From the NCBI GenBank assembly GCA_017303935.1, contig JAFLBD010000001.1:806001-870000 (forward strand): 64,000 nucleotides of DNA. Reading direction: 5' to 3'. Positions 9,389-64,000 of the stretch are shown piece by piece. Positions within the stretch are counted from its first letter, which is position 1. Each line of letters begins with the position of its first letter. The translations under genes were made by a program, and so were the position numbers. The notes beneath the pieces were generated by a model that made no database searches, was not told the DNA's origin, and saw nothing but the letters and a program-made list of their open reading frames with translations. The stretch comes from Armatimonadota bacterium. Its GTDB lineage: Bacteria; Armatimonadota; Fimbriimonadia; Fimbriimonadales; Fimbriimonadaceae.

Positions 9389-10045
9389 ATGCCTACCGCA
9401 GAAAAAGCGCAAATCATCGAACAAACTCAAGGCTGGTACTCCCAGGCGAAGGGAGTCATCTTAGCTGACTACCGTGGTTTGTCGGTGAAGCAAGTTCAAA
9501 AGCTGCGCGGAGATCTCCGGGCAAAGGGCGGCGAATTACACGTAATCAAGAACACCCTGTTCCAGCGCGCGATCGGCGACGATGTTGCCAGCCTCGCAGA
9601 AGAACTCAAGGGTGGCCCAATGGCTTACGCTTTCTTGTTTGAGAACGAAACCGACTGCGCCAAAATGCTGGTCGATTTCGCTGCCTCATCCAAGAAGCTC
9701 GAAGTCAAGGGTGGAATCTTTGCTGGCAAGGCAATGACCGGTAATCAGGTTGTTGCATTCAGCAAGCTTCCTTCGCGAGAGGTTTTGATCGCTCAAGTCA
9801 TTGGCGCGATCGCTGCCCCACTTTCCAATCTCGTTGGTGTTGTCGAAGCCTTGTACGCGGATCCAATTCGTGTTATTGGTGCCGTCGCCGATAAGGTTGC
9901 AGAAGGTTCGCCGCTCCCAGCTCCACAAGCCGCAAGCGCAGAAGTTTCGTCCCCCGCTGAAGAGGCTGCACCAGCCGCTGAAGCCGAAGCCCCCGCCGAG
10001 GCGCCTGCCGCCGAAGCACCATCCACAGAAGGAGAATCCAACTAA
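9389..10045 (+). CDS. rplJ: Large ribosomal subunit protein uL10
   Basis: L10 forms the base of the ribosomal stalk and binds L7/L12 dimers. The start ATG at 9389 gives the typical N-terminus [12 protein letters not shown]; a longer upstream frame would run through the leader terminator. Conserved segments are [15 protein letters not shown] and [10 protein letters not shown]. The 218-residue protein has a C-terminal tail very rich in Ala, Pro and Glu from about residue 180, longer than in E. coli. Followed after 2 bp by rplL. Confidence 0.96.
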
Positions 10046-56063: not shown

Positions 56064-56138
56064 GCCGGAATAGCTCAGTGGTAGAGCGGCTGTTTTGTAA
56101 ACAGCGGGTCGCGGGTTCGAATCCTGTTTCCGGCTCCA
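56064..56138 (+). tRNA. tRNA-Thr (TGT)
   Basis: A 75-base cloverleaf. The acceptor stem GCCGGAA pairs with TTCCGGC, the anticodon loop TTTGTAA gives anticodon TGT, the T arm has GCGGGTTCGAATCCTGT, and CCA is encoded. The gene content changes sharply right after it. Confidence 0.96.
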
Positions 56139-56422: not shown

Positions 56423-59400
56423 CTAGATGCCCTTACAGATGACCTCGGCTTGTTCGATCACGAACTGAACCGCCGCATTCTCGAAGTCAGGAGGGTAACC
56501 ATACTTGCGGAGAATCCGCTTGATGAGCCGTCGAAGGTTCGCCCGGACGCTGTCGCGAACATGCCAGTCAATCGTCGCGTTCTGTCTTACCGTCGAGAGG
56601 AGCTCACGCGCGATGAGTGCGAGCTTCTGGTCACCCATAACCTCTACCGCGTTGTTGTTCGTGGCCAAGGCGTCGTAGAAGGACTCTTCATCTTCGTTGA
56701 GTCCGAGCCGGGAGCCTTGGTTTCGCTGGTCTCTGAAGTCCTTCGCCATCTGGACCAACTCCTCAATGAGTTGAGCCATCTCGATAGCCTGGTTTGTGTA
56801 TCGTTTGACCGCCTCCTCCAGCATCTCCGCGAAGGTTCGGGCCTTGACGACGTTCTTCTCCGACTTCAGAGCGATCTCCTCATTAAGAAGCCTCTTCAGT
56901 AGCTCCAGAGCGAGATTCTTCCTGGGAAGGTTCTTGAGGTCGTTCAAGAACTCGTCAGAGAGGAGGGCAATGTTCGGCTTTTCGATTCCCGCTGCCTGAA
57001 AGAGGTCGACCACGCCTCCGGGAAGGATCGCCTTAGAAACAAGCTGCTTTACGGCGAGCTCACGGTCAGCATTTGTTCGAGCTTGCCCGGGCTTTGGAAC
57101 ATTGATTTCTTTCTGATATGCGGCTCGGATGGATTGGAAGAACGCAACCTCCAATTTGTGCTCCATAACCTTCTCGTCTGGAACGGAAAGGGCGTACGCT
57201 TGGCCGAGTTCGTAGACCCGGGCAGAGAATCGCTTCTGCTTCTCGTCATCGAACCCGAGAACGAGATCGACCGCGTCGGCCAATAGCTCTAGCCGGTCCT
57301 GTGGCGTCCCGGTCATCCAGTCGTCGTAGGTGAAGCCGTGGAGAAGGCCGCGACAAGTGTCGAGCTTCTCGAAGAAGGCCTTGATTGCCTTTGCTTGTGT
57401 TTGGGCGGCGTCTTCCTTATCCCCTCCGCTCGCCTGGGCGTACTCGGCAAGGGCCTTCTTCAGCGGCTCCCCAAGCCCAAGGTAATCGACGATCAATCCA
57501 CCCGGTTTATTCTGGAAGACCCGGTTCACGCGAGCGATAGCCTGCATGAGGTTGTGTCCCTTCATCGGCTTATCCAGGTACATCGTGTGCATGCAAGGAG
57601 CGTCAAACCCGGTGAGCCACATGTCGCAGACGATCACGAGCTTAAACGGATCGTTGGGGTCCTTATAGCGATTCGCCAAGTCCTCCAGCGACCTCTTCGA
57701 GCGGATGTGACGCTGAAACTCGGGAGGGTCACTTGCCGCTCCGGTCATGATCACTTTCAAGACTCCCTCGCTATCGTGAGGAGCGTCCCACTCGGGGCGA
57801 AGGCGGGTGAGGGCGTTGAACATCGCGACCGCGATTCGGCGGCTCATGCAGACGATCATCGCCTTTCCGTCAACTCCCGTTCGGGCCATTCCATCGACCC
57901 GATTCTCCCAATGCTCAACAAGGTCATCGGCGACAAGGTTGAGCCGTTTCGGATCGCCCACGAGGGCTTCGGTTGCCGCCCACTCCCGCTTCAGTCGCTC
58001 GCGAGCGGTCTCTTCCTCTCCCTCTGTGATCTCTTCGAATTCGGGGTCAATCTTCGGACGCTGATCCTCGTCTAGACTCAACTTTGCGAATCGACCCTCG
58101 TAATAGATCGGAACCGTCGCTCCGTCCTCAACGGCTCGTTGCACGTTGTAAACGCTGATCACGTCGCCGAAAACTTGAACCGTATTAGCGTTCGTGAGCT
58201 GGATCGGCGTTCCCGTGAACGCCATGAAAGTAGCGTTCGGGAGGGCGTTGCGCATGTGCATCGCGTATCCTTCCGCGATCTCGCCCTTTTGGTTGATTCG
58301 AGCCTCTAGCCCGTATTGCGAGCGGTGGGCTTCATCGGCAAGGACAATCACGTTCCGACGGTCGGTGAGAGCCGGGAACGACTCTTCCTCGGCGGTCGGG
58401 AAGAACTTCTGAATCGTGGTGAAGATCACTCCGCCCGCTGGAACGCTCAGGAGACGACGGATTTCCGGTCGAGACTCCGCCCGGGTCGGAGTTTGGCGAA
58501 GGAGGTCCTTACACGAGGCGAACGTGTTGAAGAGCTGCTCGTCGAGGTCGTTCCGGTCGGTGACAACCACAATTGTAGGGTTTCGCATCTCATCGGAGAG
58601 CACGATTCGCCCAGCGAAGTAGGCCATTGTGAGGCTCTTTCCGCTTCCTTGGGTGTGCCAGACCACCCCTCCGCGTCCGTCCGATCCCTCCTCACTCGCC
58701 CGGATCGCCGCTTCAAGGGCGGTGTTCACGGCGTGGTACTGGTGATATCCCGCGACCTTTTTGATCGGCCCGTGTTTGGTGTCCTCGAAGACCAAGAAGT
58801 AGCGGACGAGATCGAGAAATCGGCGGGGTTGAAGAATTCCGAAGGTGAGCGTACGCAAGTCGCCCTTCCCCTCGATGGGATGCTCGATTGCCCTCCAAGG
58901 CATGAACCGCTCCCAGTCGCTACTGATGGTCCCGAGCCGAGCGTCGAGCCCGTCCGAGATCACGCAAATCGCGTTGTAGTTGAAGAGGCTCGTAATCTGA
59001 GCCTTGTAAGTCTGAATCTGGTTAAAGGCCGCCTCTACCGTGGCTTTCTCATCGGCGGCGTTCTTGAGTTCGATGACGACGAACGGAAGGCCGTTCACAA
59101 AGAGAATAATGTCCGGACGGCGATTTCTTTCGGTTGCCGGGAGGTGATCCCCTCCGATGTTCTGTCTCTCGATGATGGTGAACTGGTTGACCGCGATGAG
59201 GTCGTTCTCTTCTGGCGATTCCCAGTCAACCAAGACGACGTTCGCCGTTGCATCTTTACCGTCAGCGTCACGATAGGGGACCCTCACAGAGTCCGAGAGC
59301 ATTCGATGGAAGTTCCGGTTGCTGGTGATGAGGTCAGGGGAGTCTGGTCGAGTTACGATTCGGAACGCCTCATCAAGGACCGCTTGCGAAACTCCCGGAT

Positions 59401-59575
59401 TCAGGCGTCGGAGAGCTTCGCGGAGTCTTCCGGATAGAAAGACGGTGGAGAACTCATCGCGCTCGGCGGCGGGCTTCTCCGGCTCAATATCAGGCCCGAA
59501 AACATGCTTCCACCCAAGTTCACCGAGCCACTGGAGGTGAAGCTCTTCGAGCTCCTGCTCTGACAGCCTGCTCAT
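56423..59575 (-). CDS. hsdR: Type I restriction enzyme motor/nuclease subunit HsdR
   Basis: 1050 residues. The N-terminal nuclease core is PD-(D/E)x[10 protein letters not shown] (D155), VIELK (E169, K171), followed by Q-x3-Y (Q186-Y190). The helicase part has Walker A HTQGSGKS (308-314), DEAH (414-417) and FMAFTGTPI. It translocates DNA and cuts unmethylated DNA together with HsdM and HsdS. An hsdS fragment lies at the right edge; hsdM is not seen. It overlaps the AlbA-domain gene by ATGA and is last in the operon. Confidence 0.97.
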
Positions 59576-60729
59576 TGCTTTTCACCCGAAGTCTTAGAGT
59601 AAGGTGAACAGGGTATCCCAACTGCTTGATAGGCCACATCAAAGGCGGGAGCCAAGAGTTGTCTTACGACCTTCTTGTCCATACATCCTGAAGTATCTTG
59701 TAGCTCAATTTCGGGAAGCAGAAGAATATCTCGGTCGATCGGCTCCTCGTTACTCTTTCGCCCCATGTACAAAGTTCGCCCATGACACCCGGTAAGGCTC
59801 AAAGAAATGATGATGTTCCGACTAAGGCCAATCCTAGATAGAAATGTTAAGCATCCCAAAACATAGTCAATAGTTTGATTCTCCCAGTGTTCCGCTGCAA
59901 TTGTTCCACCGGGTCCGTTTGTGTTCCCAACTTCAGTGACGCCTTCAAATACCCCATTCCGAAAAAGTTGTGAATAAGAGGTCTTGCGGCGATCGGGCAT
60001 CACGGTTGACAGAATTCCGTCGAAGTTCAGTTTGGGCAATGCTCCTCCTTCGAAAGCAAATGGCAGGGCTCCTCGCAACCCCGAGGCTGTGACATCAATG
60101 AAAGCAGATTCAGTGAATGATTCAAGAGGTATAACGTGAACCACAGCCATGCCCGTTGTAACGTTTCGAATCTGACCTTGACCGACAGAGATCAGTCCGA
60201 CCCGTTCAGCTCTCCACCTCTTTATCCGTTCTGTAAGAGAATCAGCAACCTGGAACGCTTGACGAATCTCTCGCGAATCCATAGGCTCTGCCTTTGAGGA
60301 AGTTCTCAGATAGAAATAGCTTTGTTCGCTAATCCTAACCCTGTGCGGACCTATCCAGCTACGCGGAATATCCAGAACGATGACACGTCCGTGTGGGAAT
60401 CCTTCTACTCCGTAAATGTTCACAGAGTTGAGTGGCGGATCACAATTGTCCCGGAGCTTGTTTTCATACTTCTGCTTAAACTGATCGAGGGAAACATCCA
60501 CGCCATCGGCGGAGGTTGCTGACACAATTCCATCCTCGCTCCTTTGCTCTGATATCCCGATTATTAGGAGGCCGCCTTGACTATTCGCAAAAGCAGTCAC
60601 GTCCTTGAGAAACTCTTTAGTACCATCTTTGGAATCCGAATACATGGCCGATTTAAACTCGAGCGTTTTGGACTCATCGGCGTTTCCCGCCACAAGCAGG
60701 TCAATTTCCGCTTTTGTTAGCTTGCTCAT
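59572..60729 (-). CDS. AlbA_2/Schlafen-type ATP-binding protein
   Basis: 385 residues from ATG 60729 (ATGA overlap with the antitoxin gene). The N-terminal domain has [34 protein letters not shown] and [19 protein letters not shown], the AlbA_2 (divergent AAA_4, Schlafen-like) pattern. The C-terminal 230 residues show no recognised domain. Such proteins occur in defence loci and as regulators; here it sits between the toxin-antitoxin pair and hsdR. Confidence 0.85.
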
Positions 60730-61802
60730 TCTCCCGCCTCCGAGAATTCGAGTTTCCTGCGTAGGCTTCGCAGGTGGTGAAGTTGATCGAAAGCGTTGAA
60801 CTCGTGGCAAAGTCGACCAACCACGACCGCAGGTGCGACTTCCTGAGTTGCGGCGAAGGATGTCACCGAATCTCGCGAGAAGTCTTGATCAGACACGAAT
60901 CTTGTCCACGCTTCTATCGGGATCAATGAATCCCGGGAGAATTCGTCGGCTTCAGTCTCCTGCTGTGAAGTGGTTCCGAGCCCCTCGATAAAGGTCGCCG
61001 TCTTCTCGTGGAGAAGAATGTGCCCTATCTCATGGAAGAGGGTGAACCAAAAGATGTCCTCGTACGCGCCTCGGACGCTGAGCAGAACAACGGGCCGGGA
61101 ACGATGCCAGAAAGTCGCCCCATTAGCGTAGGTCTTCGGTAGGTGTGGGGCTGCGACAAAGGCGATTCCACACGAACCCAGAATCTCTCGGATCGCTTCG
61201 ACAATGTCCCCGCCTCCGCGAGTCACCCTCCGCAGTTCTGCCAAACATGACCGTGTCCGAGCCTTGTCGTACTCAGGAAGGTCCATCCTTTCCGCTTCAC
61301 GCTCTCCCATCCGAAGCCATGCCGCCAGGGCATAAGGACAGGGTTCCTTCTTGCGATCCTTTCGAAAAGCAGGGGCGTACGCGGTCGCTACCGCGTCCAG
61401 CTTTGCAACGTTGAAGAAACCACAGAGCTCTCCAACCCGCTCGGACTGATCTCGGGTCTTGGCCACCGCACCAACCTTCACCAGGTCGTTGTACGGAAAG
61501 TTGGCGGCGAGGGTGATCTGTTCGGCCATCCGGGCGGCACGTTGCCGAGCTTGGAGGCCGTAGCGATAGGTCGTCTCCAGGTTCAGCCAAACATGAGCGG
61601 GTGTTCCGAGAACGGCCTCCAGGTCAAAGGCGGTCTCCTCGGTGATCTCCTTCTTGGCGTTGACGATCTCGCTCACGAGCTGGTCCGGTCGACCCATCCG
61701 CTCGGCAAGTTCGCCCTGGGTCATGTTCAATGCGTCCAGGGCCTCCCGAACGTAAAACCCCGGAGCCACCAGATAATCTGAAATCAAAGGCTTAGTCGCC
61801 AT
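60726..61802 (-). CDS. HigA-like antitoxin fused to ImmA/IrrE metallopeptidase
   Basis: 358 residues. The N-terminal HTH (about 25-66, LNMTQGELAERMGRPDQLVSEI in part) is of XRE/HigA type; the C-terminal part has the zinc peptidase motif HEIGH (257-261) and ETEADEFS for the third ligand, as in ImmA/IrrE proteins. It likely represses its own promoter and counters the HigB-like toxin next to it. It overlaps that gene by 11 bp. Confidence 0.92.
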   Translation of the reverse strand: MATKPLISDYLVAPGFYVREALDALNMTQGELAERMGRPDQLVSEIVNAKKEITEETAFDLEAVLGTPAHVWLNLETTYRYGLQARQRAARMAEQITLAANFPYNDLVKVGAVAKTRDQSERVGELCGFFNVAKLDAVATAYAPAFRKDRKKEPCPYALAAWLRMGEREAERMDLPEYDKARTRSCLAELRRVTRGGGDIVEAIREILGSCGIAFVAAPHLPKTYANGATFWHRSRPVVLLSVRGAYEDIFWFTLFHEIGHILLHEKTATFIEGLGTTSQQETEADEFSRDSLIPIEAWTRFVSDQDFSRDSVTSFAATQEVAPAVVVGRLCHEFNAFDQLHHLRSLRRKLEFSEAGE

Positions 61803-62097
61803 AGTGGTTGCTCACCTCCTCAATCACGGCTCCCTTTCCGTCCGCGTCGGGCCAATACTCCAATCTCCATCGGTCATGCAAAGTGAAGGCCCGCAAGCCC
61901 GCTCTCGGCCCTTTAAGGTCGTGGTCGCGGTAATGCGGAAAGGACTTCCCGAACTCCGAGACGTCGTTGACAGCTTGAAGCGCATTTACACGCTCGATAT
62001 ACTTCTTCGCCACCACATCACCCCAAAGCTTCGTTCCGGCTTTGAGCTCCAGAAAAGCCTTCTCCAGCTTCTTGTTGGCAAACCGGATCGTAATCAA
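61792..62097 (-). CDS. HigB/RelE-type toxin
   Basis: 101 residues with the RelE/ParE fold pattern and a family-type start ITIRFANKKLEKAFLEL; the C-terminal RAFTLHDRWRLEYWP segment matches HigB-like mRNA interferases. The start is TTG 62097; the promoter just upstream makes the transcript nearly leaderless. Toxin first, antitoxin second is the HigBA order. Confidence 0.88.
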   Translation of the reverse strand: MITIRFANKKLEKAFLELKAGTKLWGDVVAKKYIERVNALQAVNDVSEFGKSFPHYRDHDLKGPRAGLRAFTLHDRWRLEYWPDADGKGAVIEEVSNHYGD

Positions 62098-62298: not shown

Positions 62299-62433
62299 TT
62301 ATTTCTTTCTCTCGGGAGGGGGCGGCGGATGTGGAGGAGGCGGAGTAACCGGGCGTGAGGGCGCGGGGCCTGTAGATTCGCGGTTTGGGCCGGGGCTTTG
62401 ACCAGTCCGAACGTTCGGCTTATCCTTGCTCAT
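62299..62433 (-). CDS. RPVTPP peptide A, tiny proline-rich protein
   Basis: 44 residues: MSKDKPNVRTGQS, a Gly/Pro/Ser middle, then APSRPVTPPPPH with five further prolines and ERKK. No hydrophobic segment. It starts inside the stop codon of the preceding gene (ATGA, 4 bp). It shares the motif APSRPVTPPPP and a basic end with peptide B. Too short for standard gene calling. Family unknown to me; the gene is supported by coupling and by repeated sequence similarity to its neighbours. Confidence 0.7.
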   Translation of the reverse strand: MSKDKPNVRTGQSPGPNRESTGPAPSRPVTPPPPHPPPPPERKK

Positions 62434-62588
62434 TTCTTGCTGCCTCTATTGTTGCCGCTGTTGGGAGGAGGTGGAGGAGGAGTCACCGGACGGCTCGGAG
62501 CTGAGTTCGTTGCTCCCGGTTGACCGGCGCCGGAGGGCGTTATAGGCCTTGATTGGGCTCCAGCTAAGTCCTGATCACTTTTGCTCAT
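62430..62588 (-). CDS. RPVTPP peptide B, tiny proline-rich protein
   Basis: 52 residues from ATG 62588. It has two related motifs, AQSRPITPSG (about 11-20) and APSRPVTPPPPPP (30-42), then NSGNNRGSKK. The start overlaps the end of peptide C by 14 bp, and its stop overlaps the start of peptide A. No membrane segment. Function unknown. Confidence 0.75.
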   Translation of the reverse strand: MSKSDQDLAGAQSRPITPSGAGQPGATNSAPSRPVTPPPPPPNSGNNRGSKK

Positions 62589-62742
62589 TGCTGTTCGCTC
62601 CTTGACCGTCAGTCCTCTGGATAGTTGAAGTTGCCTGGGCCGCGTCGCTTGGCGGCGTGACTGGACGGTCAGACGCCCCAATGTTTCTTGTGATCTCCGG
62701 CAAATTAACATGTTTAGCGGGCTTGTCGTCGCTTGTCGCCAT
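62575..62742 (-). CDS. RPVTPP peptide C, free-standing copy of the membrane protein's tail
   Basis: 55 residues beginning MATSDDKPAKHV, with ITRNIGASDRPVTPPSDA in the middle and a polar Gln/Asn/Gly end. By eye it aligns with residues 201-231 of the preceding membrane protein (SDDxP, then TRxxGxSxRPVTPP). It begins on the last base of that gene's stop codon (TAATG). Function unknown; homology to the tail is visible, meaning is inferred. Confidence 0.75.
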   Translation of the reverse strand: MATSDDKPAKHVNLPEITRNIGASDRPVTPPSDAAQATSTIQRTDGQGANSNEQK

Positions 62743-63494
62743 TACTGCTTCTTGTCTCCCGAGTTGTCTTGCGTAGACGAGTTTCCGCTTGCGGGTTGTG
62801 AAGGCGGTGGGGTCACCGGACGGTTGCTTGAGCCAAAGCTTCTAGTGGTATCCGGGGTTCCCGAGGTCGTGTTTGTCGTTGGTTGGTCGTCGCTCACATT
62901 TGCTCCTTTAGTGGGGTTAGTGGCAGTAGGGATAAGTTGCATCAAGGCAACCCCGAGGGTCAATACCCCTAGCAAAATAAGGACGATGCTTGCGGGGTTT
63001 AGGAATCGATCAAGCCACAAGTTGTATTTATTGCCACGATCATTGAGTCTCCTTGCTTCCCACATGTTGCGTCGGTCATCGTCTAGCAAGTTGGTAGCTC
63101 TCTGAAATGAGAGGTTTGCAACGTAAACGGCGGTCAACGAAAAGATCAGCGCGAAGGTCAAAAGACTCCAAGACACAAACACCCAGAATAGGGCCTCTTT
63201 CGTGGCGCGGGGGAGCAATTCTTTCAAGAGAGTCGCGGAGACAGCAATCGCGCCACCCGCAATGTACGTTCGCGACTTGTCAAAGAGGTCGCCAAGCTCG
63301 TTTCGTCGCTTGACAAGGGCGGAACGCTCTTCAATGTAGATTTTCTCGTCGGCGAGGGCGTTTGCGTCAGGAACGTGCGAAGTGGGATGTTCTACCCCGG
63401 CTTCTGAATGCTCAGGGGGTGCTGCTACAACCTTGGCTGCAGCCGCCTCTACACCTTGAGGTTTGGCTTCTTCAGCTTTCGTCTTTCTACGCAT
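62742..63494 (-). CDS. Membrane protein with C-terminal RPVTPP tail
   Basis: 250 residues from ATG 63494, which lies within the end of hsdS (8 bp overlap). An Ala/Glu-rich N-terminus (1-50) is followed by a charged helix, hydrophobic helices at about 76-93, 101-128 and 168-190, and between them a charged loop (LDDDRRNMWEARRLNDRG). The last 55 residues are a Thr/Ser/Asn-rich tail with SSNRPVTPPPSQ and a KKQ end. No known domain recognised. It is the largest member of the RPVTPP set and its likely membrane anchor. Confidence 0.8.
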   Translation of the reverse strand: MRRKTKAEEAKPQGVEAAAAKVVAAPPEHSEAGVEHPTSHVPDANALADEKIYIEERSALVKRRNELGDLFDKSRTYIAGGAIAVSATLLKELLPRATKEALFWVFVSWSLLTFALIFSLTAVYVANLSFQRATNLLDDDRRNMWEARRLNDRGNKYNLWLDRFLNPASIVLILLGVLTLGVALMQLIPTATNPTKGANVSDDQPTTNTTSGTPDTTRSFGSSNRPVTPPPSQPASGNSSTQDNSGDKKQ

Positions 63495-64000
63495 TTTCGG
63501 CCCCTGCGCATAGCGATCCTGACAGAAGACGCGGTAGCAAGTAGTCTCTTGTCTCTGCCAAAGTGCTAGATTCCCGTTCATTGGCGGCGATTTGAAGGTC
63601 AATAGCCCCCACGAGGTGGTTGAAAGCAAGAGCAACTTCGAGCGAAGGAGTAACGAATGGAAGCCCGACGAACCCTTGCTTCGTTATCGAACCGAACACC
63701 GTTCCAGACTCTTCGAATACCTTGAACTGGTCTGAAAGCTCACCCATGGCATAGTAGGTCAGCGACATTGAGCCACTAAGATGTCGAATCGCGGCTAGTC
63801 CTCGACCGATGCAACATCGTTCGTTGGCGACGTTGAGAGCTCCGACGGGAGCCCTCACGCTTACCAGGGTGTCACCCTCTTCGGCAAAGCGAGTTGGAGC
63901 GGTGCAGGATAGCCGCCGCTCGGGGAATCTCCATCCGTAGTCAGTCTTTCCTTGATAGAACGGGATTCCCTCGCCTGAGGAGTTGTAGCTCTCCCCAGGA
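63487..64000 (-). CDS. hsdS: Type I restriction specificity subunit HsdS, 5' part outside window
   Basis: The frame is open through the right edge, so only the last 170 residues or so are seen. They carry the second target-recognition domain: GIPFYQGKTDYGWRFP, TRFAEEGDTLVSVRAPVGA, CCIGRGLAAIR, GTVFGSITKQGFVGLPFV and the end helix TLAETRDYLLPRLLSGSL. HsdS sets the DNA sequence recognised by the type I complex. The start of the membrane protein gene lies inside its end. Confidence 0.93.
   Translation of the reverse strand, partial: PGESYNSSGEGIPFYQGKTDYGWRFPERRLSCTAPTRFAEEGDTLVSVRAPVGALNVANERCCIGRGLAAIRHLSGSMSLTYYAMGELSDQFKVFEESGTVFGSITKQGFVGLPFVTPSLEVALAFNHLVGAIDLQIAANERESSTLAETRDYLLPRLLSGSLCAGAENA

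Follow-up and report, generated by a model that had tools for sequence, protein, structure and literature searches.

Four consecutive genes that each encode the peptide RPVTPP in an Armatimonadota bacterium were found to specify one member of a membrane protein family that recurs across many phyla, together with three tiny proteins equivalent to that protein's own C-terminal tail. They are proposed, with a probability of about 0.45, to form a self-contained module of membrane protein and docking peptide that serves as a membrane effector of the accessory, defence-island genome.

The RPVTPP gene cluster

The window is the whole stretch of DNA that was analysed (64,000 nucleotides; contig JAFLBD010000001.1, positions 806,001 to 870,000). 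The features referred to below are as follows.

62742..63494, minus strand: membrane protein gene, 250 aa (open reading frame, homologues, alignment, AlphaFold2, hydrophobicity)
62742..62885, minus strand: disordered tail at the C terminus of the membrane protein, approximately residues 203-250 with the stop (block pLDDT mostly 46-56)
62575..62742, minus strand: tiny protein 1, 55 aa, with RPVTPP (open reading frame, weak match to the membrane protein tail)
62430..62588, minus strand: tiny protein 2, 52 aa, with RPVTPP and a degenerate RPITPS (open reading frame from the ATG at 62588)
62299..62433, minus strand: tiny protein 3, 44 aa, with RPVTPP (open reading frame)
62805..62822, minus strand: RPVTPP codons of the membrane protein (motif search)
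62650..62667, minus strand: RPVTPP codons of tiny protein 1 (motif search)
62475..62492, minus strand: RPVTPP codons of tiny protein 2 (motif search)
62338..62355, minus strand: RPVTPP codons of tiny protein 3 (motif search)
62532..62549, minus strand: decayed fifth copy, RPITPS, in tiny protein 2 (translation)
63487..64000, minus strand, extending past the window to genome C1:870686: hsdS-like specificity gene (ORF 9488-10687 of L009)
56423..59575, minus strand: hsdR of the same type I operon, given for context (HSDR_N, SWI2_SNF2 and T1RH-like_C far over cut-off)
56064-56138: tRNA-Thr, flanking the hsdR end of the operon

On the minus strand the gene order is hsdS, membrane protein, 55-aa, 52-aa and 44-aa protein, and each gene overlaps the next, by 8 nt (hsdS and membrane protein), 1 nt (TAATG, membrane and 55-aa protein), 14 nt (55-aa and 52-aa proteins), and 4 nt (ATGA, 52-aa and 44-aa proteins). 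The sequence AAGGAG lies upstream of the ATG of the second tiny gene. The membrane protein consists of a long N-terminal helix, a DK-x6-GGAI core, membrane helices (one marginal and two clear), and a disordered tail that carries the motif. A first-pass annotation of this DNA had described four consecutive RPVTPP genes with S, N, or D before the motif Arg; all four are present on the minus strand with the lengths it gave, and the preceding residues are N, D, S, and S. Structured RNA was sought in the cluster, and none was found.

RPVTPP coded with CGN for the arginine occurs at four sites in the whole 2.56-Mb genome, all within these four genes, while the reversed control pattern occurs at none. 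A chance origin of the motif was ruled out on the ground that 4/4 genome-wide sites fall inside the cluster. The four motif copies show 26 pairwise nucleotide differences, reflecting at least 10 changes, and all 26 are synonymous, where a random change would be expected to be synonymous one time in three. It was therefore deduced that the pattern in the window is coding and under selection and not the product of recent slippage, which the first-pass annotation had named among the findings that would undo its proposal. Recent duplication was excluded likewise, as the copies differ at synonymous positions only. An artefact of GC content or polyproline was also rejected, given that dN is well under dS and that like peptides recur in many phyla. 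The synonymous differences, together with relatives of the same tandem layout, bear out the earlier view that the tiny reading frames are real genes. RPVTPP itself is the local version of a widely varying motif in a much larger family.

The membrane protein family

The family is recognized by an invariant DK...GA...W...G signature, with the core DK-x6-GGALGLSxTF. When 33 members from many phyla were aligned, seven columns proved invariant, Met1 included, and the window protein has them all; D72, K73, G81, A82, W109, and G176 (window numbering) are the same in all 33 sequences, of which the window protein is one. The window protein accordingly carries each element of the FDK-GGALGLS family, namely, DK with a helix of small residues, Trp in the next helix, and Gly in the last. 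In its own genome it matched the family profile with an E value of 5e-46, being itself one of the 33 profile rows. The AlphaFold2 model of the window protein, at moderate confidence (pLDDT 72), has helices at 44-93, 99-143, and 156-187 followed by the disordered tail, and the model of a Geobacter member gave the same picture. Docking of the tail onto its own protein was not seen in either of these two models. Foldseek comparison of the moderately confident window model with the PDB and viral models found no match (best E value in the PDB, 1.4). At one locus (L048:1503-1991) the membrane protein has an N-terminal zinc-ribbon-like extension (CPFC...CKHC), and the tiny protein there has a long PRPAPP repeat ahead of its motif.

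No match above cut-off was found for the scanned proteins in Pfam or NCBIfam, the PADLOC matches were weak, and PDB sequence searches were negative. The membrane protein thus has no Pfam, NCBIfam, or PADLOC entry, in keeping with the earlier statement that no known family was recognized. Literature searches by exact motif or keyword found no description in open-access texts, which is weak evidence of absence. The first-pass annotation had also suggested a search for an RPVTPP family; homologues were found, but the family proved to be defined by the membrane protein together with a proline-rich motif that is specific to each locus.

By record titles and tree position, the membrane family is present in at least 10 phyla as well as in prophage, phage, and plasmid records. 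The phyla are Planctomycetota, Verrucomicrobiota, Chloroflexota, Nitrospirota, Thermodesulfobacteriota, Myxococcota, Acidobacteriota, Pseudomonadota, Bacteroidota, Chlorobiota, Balneolota, and Armatimonadota. When the DK...GGALxLSxT core was turned into a DNA search pattern, without recourse to the tiny genes, matches were obtained in 38 genome contigs and in 3 viral ones. By profile and protein searches, the membrane protein was detected in 6/113 genomes of the window's order and 9/291 of its phylum, and in none of four genomes of the same genus. In four other phyla, profile matches were obtained in 3/198, 4/301, 9/289, and 3/247 genomes, of which the weakest may be false, so that prevalence is about 1 to 3% of genomes per sampled phylum, with a single copy of the membrane gene per genome. 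Taxa are mixed on the tree; for example, Planctomycetota and Myxococcota rows are joined at 99%. One further member with tiny ORFs was found on an Acuticoccus plasmid and another on a phage-like contig; in the plasmid annotation, the gene table of which is incomplete, the membrane gene is hypothetical and the tiny ORF has no gene. Three members (L026, L042, and L111) lie within Mu-like prophage or phage-like contigs. Searches of phage, plasmid, and viral collections gave single distant matches for typical members and left the window protein and the G058-type protein unmatched, and no integration repeat was found at the flanking tRNA-Thr. The module is a patchy, horizontally spread part of the accessory genome.

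Tiny proteins and the membrane protein tail

A tail-like tiny ORF or a fused tail was scored by a mechanical rule, with neighbouring genes as the control, and was found at 27/37 untruncated loci compared to at most 21/209 neighbouring genes (Fisher P of about 4e-15); these cases are not all independent, as five Geobacter-type loci are closely related and L026 and L042 have the same prophage protein. By eye, L032, L035, L054, and L057 were added, while L026 and L033 are doubtful as called. The window has both forms, with three tiny genes adjacent to the membrane gene and a fused tail within it. In a hand-collected set of 36 tiny proteins, lengths have a median of 44, a net positive charge is found in 32/36, and Lys or Arg is found among the last three residues in 30/36. 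PP is present in 32 and PPP in 23.

The motifs are common within a locus and different between loci. GYIPPPPPP is found in L027 and L063, GYVPPKxPxKP in L049 and L058, and GYAPAQxPS plus GYTPP in the fused Geobacter tails, while L062 has four copies of a GxLVPPPP-type motif and L108 has four copies of a SYTPPVxKLPPPPP-type motif. As a description that carries no statistical test, 51/55 hand-picked motif windows match the loose form [GSR]x(1-3)[VITRASQW]xP. The L108 arrangement is an exact repeat of that in the window, and the differences between its tandem copies are mostly synonymous. Overlapping tiny genes after the membrane gene repeat its tail in G009 (FGPRSTPVTAQ with FGPPSTPVTPQ) and in G055 (FGPKDRPVTPK with FPPKDRPIKKP), and a tandem pair of tiny genes, with a motif of their own, is present in both G058 and G134. 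A third tiny ORF of G055 (L011, approximately 9575-9700) reads APKD*PVTPKP, and this copy looks decayed since a TGA lies inside the motif. In a Chlorobiaceae member (L044:5700-6300), three G-x-WVPP copies with similar spacers stand in one long frame, like tiny genes run together.

Four between-species pairs of tiny genes and tails gave dN of 0.07 to 0.30 against dS of 1.25 to 2.24, a dN/dS of about 0.06 to 0.18, which corresponds to purifying selection. These values bear on the possibility that polyproline stalls ribosomes when EF-P or prolyl-tRNA is low and so ties expression to the state of translation. PPP in 23/36 tiny proteins and the tight gene overlaps are in line with such a sensor, but 13/36 are without PPP (for example, those of L049, L058, L053, and G055 and the window 55-aa protein, which has PP only), yet mostly keep the flanking motif and the Lys-rich end. 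Since dN is much lower than dS along the peptides, the peptide was concluded to matter beyond stalling, and this explanation was considered very improbable indeed. EF-P dependence is possible for some members; it is not the conserved feature, and the earlier suggestion of such dependence was not upheld as a general one.

The equivalence of tail and tiny protein was deduced from several alignments. In the window, the 55-aa protein aligns with the membrane protein tail along its full length (SDDxP...TRxxGxSxRPVTPP), and a search of the genome with the membrane protein returned the 55-aa stretch as the second, weak match (E value, 0.0015); tail and tiny protein were therefore taken to be the same element. 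The same conclusion follows from the start Met of the tiny gene, which is kept in the fused tails of L061 (compared to L053), L108, L057, G009, and G055, as it often is. The fused tail of L061, MSKKKSGFVKTEGVVPP..., can be aligned to the tiny protein that its sister L053 encodes separately, MSDKKKGRLIEGFVSQK..., and in L108 three separate copies come after the tail, MTCKPTPQ...SYTPPVNKLPPPPP. On a quick tree at least 12 switches between fused and unfused forms were counted, an approximate figure given weak inner branches and hand-set labels. The first-pass annotation had spoken of soluble tail-like partners, and their likeness to the tail was confirmed by this interchange and by tandem relatives in G009, G055, L108, L062, and L047. 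By a Rosetta-stone argument, the tail and the membrane protein may be expected to cooperate on the same side of the membrane.

Free copies of a tail might also be decoys, as the first-pass annotation suggested; by imitating the tail, they would draw some partner, perhaps an inhibitor made by a phage, away from the membrane protein. The copying of both tail and motif in the window, G055, G009, L108, and L062 would suit this role, but at many loci (L049, L058, L063, and L027) the membrane protein is tailless and the only copy is the tiny protein. There is then nothing to mimic, so the decoy idea fails for the common form and was judged quite improbable.

Points that weigh against the docking-peptide module are the negative Foldseek comparison, the undocked tails of the two AlphaFold2 models, and a problem over the side of the membrane on which the tail lies. 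Of the membrane helices, two are clear and one, the first (DK to KD), is borderline (Kyte-Doolittle mean, 1.48; Hessa sum, +5.7). With three spanning helices, the fused tail would lie opposite the N terminus and, by charge, outside the cytoplasm. The free tiny proteins are without a hydrophobic export signal, an export-like hydrophobic stretch being found in 0/36 of the hand-collected set, and this conflict is resolved only on the assumption that the first helix, the marginal one, does not cross the membrane. If it does not, the N and C termini would both be cytosolic, with tails and tiny proteins in one compartment; if it does, tails and tiny proteins would be in different compartments.

Genomic neighbourhood and a possible link to defence

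The operon in the window comprises hsdM, a 310-aa protein, a DUF262-like gene, a 273-aa protein, and hsdS, followed by the membrane protein, the three tiny genes, a HigB/HigA-type pair (Peptidase_M78), an SLFN_AlbA_2 protein, and hsdR. These domains were assigned by Pfam for hsdR, SLFN_AlbA_2, and HigA only, by a separate search for hsdM, and by reading for the others. Accessory defence-type genes are packed around hsdM/S/R (window 59572-62097 and L009 11660-13657). The window hsdS-like gene matches the HsdS of L032 by tblastn, and in G055 the module again follows hsdS. A type I N6-methylase gene was found within 10 kb in 6/52 genomes, the window included, compared to 0.77 expected (P of about 9e-5), an excess of about eightfold. 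Neighbour tallies also included Eco57I/MmeI, XamI, TIR, AbiEii, HerA, and nSTAND genes, with type I, IIG, and II restriction genes. The link to a restriction operon made in the first-pass annotation stands as a tendency (6/52 against 0.8 expected) but not as a rule, as no restriction gene was found near most loci. An all-against-all comparison of 262 neighbouring ORFs revealed no conserved third partner beyond close relatives and hsdM, with the exception of a GFO/IDH/MocA oxidoreductase common to two Planctomycetota. Since no neighbour besides the tiny genes is conserved, the module was concluded to be self-contained.

A defence role is not forced, given that most loci are without a nearby restriction gene or a conserved partner. 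The module could instead serve membrane housekeeping or the maintenance of mobile elements and merely be sited in variable regions, as would fit the ordinary neighbours at many loci, the lack of a conserved partner, and the members that lie in Mu-like prophage or adjoin a type IV secretion region. This is held to be improbable in view of the eightfold excess of nearby type I methylase genes and the other defence genes in the tallies.

Comparison with known systems

The best profile matches of the membrane protein were all weak, with E values of 0.0016 for 2TM, 0.064 for RTasSLATT, and 0.049 for PycTM, and NCBIfam SLATT_4 gave 12.1 bits compared to a cut-off of 55. The C-terminal half of L030:5119-5727 matched the end of PADLOC PD-T4-6 with an E value of 1.3e-4, the strongest defence-profile match in the family. 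SLATT and 2TM are listed among conflict-system effectors in PMC7159879. Like the SLATT, 2TM, and PycTM effectors, the module has a small membrane protein, which combines a helical soluble part with two or three membrane helices, and is found among defence genes, but where a profile has a cut-off, no match exceeded it. No nucleotide cyclase, SMODS, or SLOG sensor is conserved, and none was among the Pfam matches of the scanned operon genes in the window. We know of no tandem tiny proline-rich partners described for these effectors. Caution is due in calling the architecture new, as the membrane half could turn out to be very distantly related to known membrane effectors.

Type II toxin-antitoxin operons likewise have two tightly coupled small genes and are accessory and patchy. 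The module differs in that a disordered Pro/Lys peptide, present in one to four copies and homologous to the tail of the first part, makes up its second part, and in having no DNA-binding domain. The main rival explanation is nevertheless of this kind, with the membrane protein as a toxin that arrests growth or forms pores and the tiny proteins or the cis tail as antitoxin-like plugs that would be freed or degraded on infection. It draws on the tight coupling of a small hydrophobic protein to tiny disordered partners, on the patchy, single-copy occurrence with defence-gene neighbours, on the marginal membrane helix, whose charged flanks could allow it to switch states, and on the very weak matches to 2TM, SLATT, and PycTM effectors. 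Against this, by the mechanical rule neither a tail nor a tiny gene is recognizable at 10/37 loci, though several of these are clear by eye or truncated, and the tiny genes come second here, while the antitoxin gene is mostly first in classical toxin-antitoxin pairs. A toxin with its inhibitor was therefore rated unlikely, although it is the strongest of the alternatives.

Accessory genes of type I restriction-modification operons are known as R-linked ORFs. As in these, the window module lies between hsdS and hsdR in one operon, and it adjoins hsd genes in G055, L032, L050, L038, and G146; most relatives differ in having no hsd genes found nearby. Pfam detected no methylase, specificity, or nuclease domain in the four window proteins. 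Short linear proline-rich motifs serve as ligands of SH3 or EVH1 type domains, and the tiny proteins resemble them in having a short proline-rich peptide, a conserved residue before the proline run, and several copies. They are unlike them in that the motif varies by locus and that a cognate reader domain was not found.

Proposed mechanism and significance

The docking-peptide module would have two components, a membrane protein with a helical N terminus and two or three transmembrane helices and a tiny (approximately 30 to 60 aa), disordered Pro/Lys-rich docking peptide. The peptide would be supplied by one to four separate, translationally coupled genes, by a fused C-terminal tail, or by both, and in the likeliest mechanism the peptides would be subunits of a membrane complex. 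The locus-specific motif is proposed to bind a single partner, which would be the membrane protein or else a shared cytosolic ligand; with several copies, binding would be multivalent and would hold the membrane protein in a set state. The analysis shows the genes, the family, the selection, the equivalence of tail and tiny protein, the patchy spread, and the excess near methylase genes, and from there we infer physical interaction, multivalency, effector activity, and defence. The output is probably accessory immunity against phages or plasmids, with the module as its membrane effector. In the window, the module and a type I restriction system are packed closely into a single run of genes. 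A more specific form, in which a phylum-spanning immune module has its membrane effector controlled by multivalent, locus-specific free copies of its own tail, is put forward tentatively, with the odds somewhat against it.

A widespread, uncatalogued membrane protein family is hereby added to the accessory genome. Genes of 30 to 60 codons, often left unannotated, can be conserved, selected, and arranged in tandem beside a defined partner, and the natural fused and separate forms are ready-made tests of interaction. A motif that is constant within a locus and variable between loci has the expected look of a co-evolving docking peptide, a pattern that to our knowledge is rarely seen in bacteria. 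If the module does serve defence, the tail-copy peptides would represent a new principle in membrane-effector immunity, and the family would amount to a built-in bacterial system of short linear motifs, encoded in tiny genes that are easily overlooked by gene callers.
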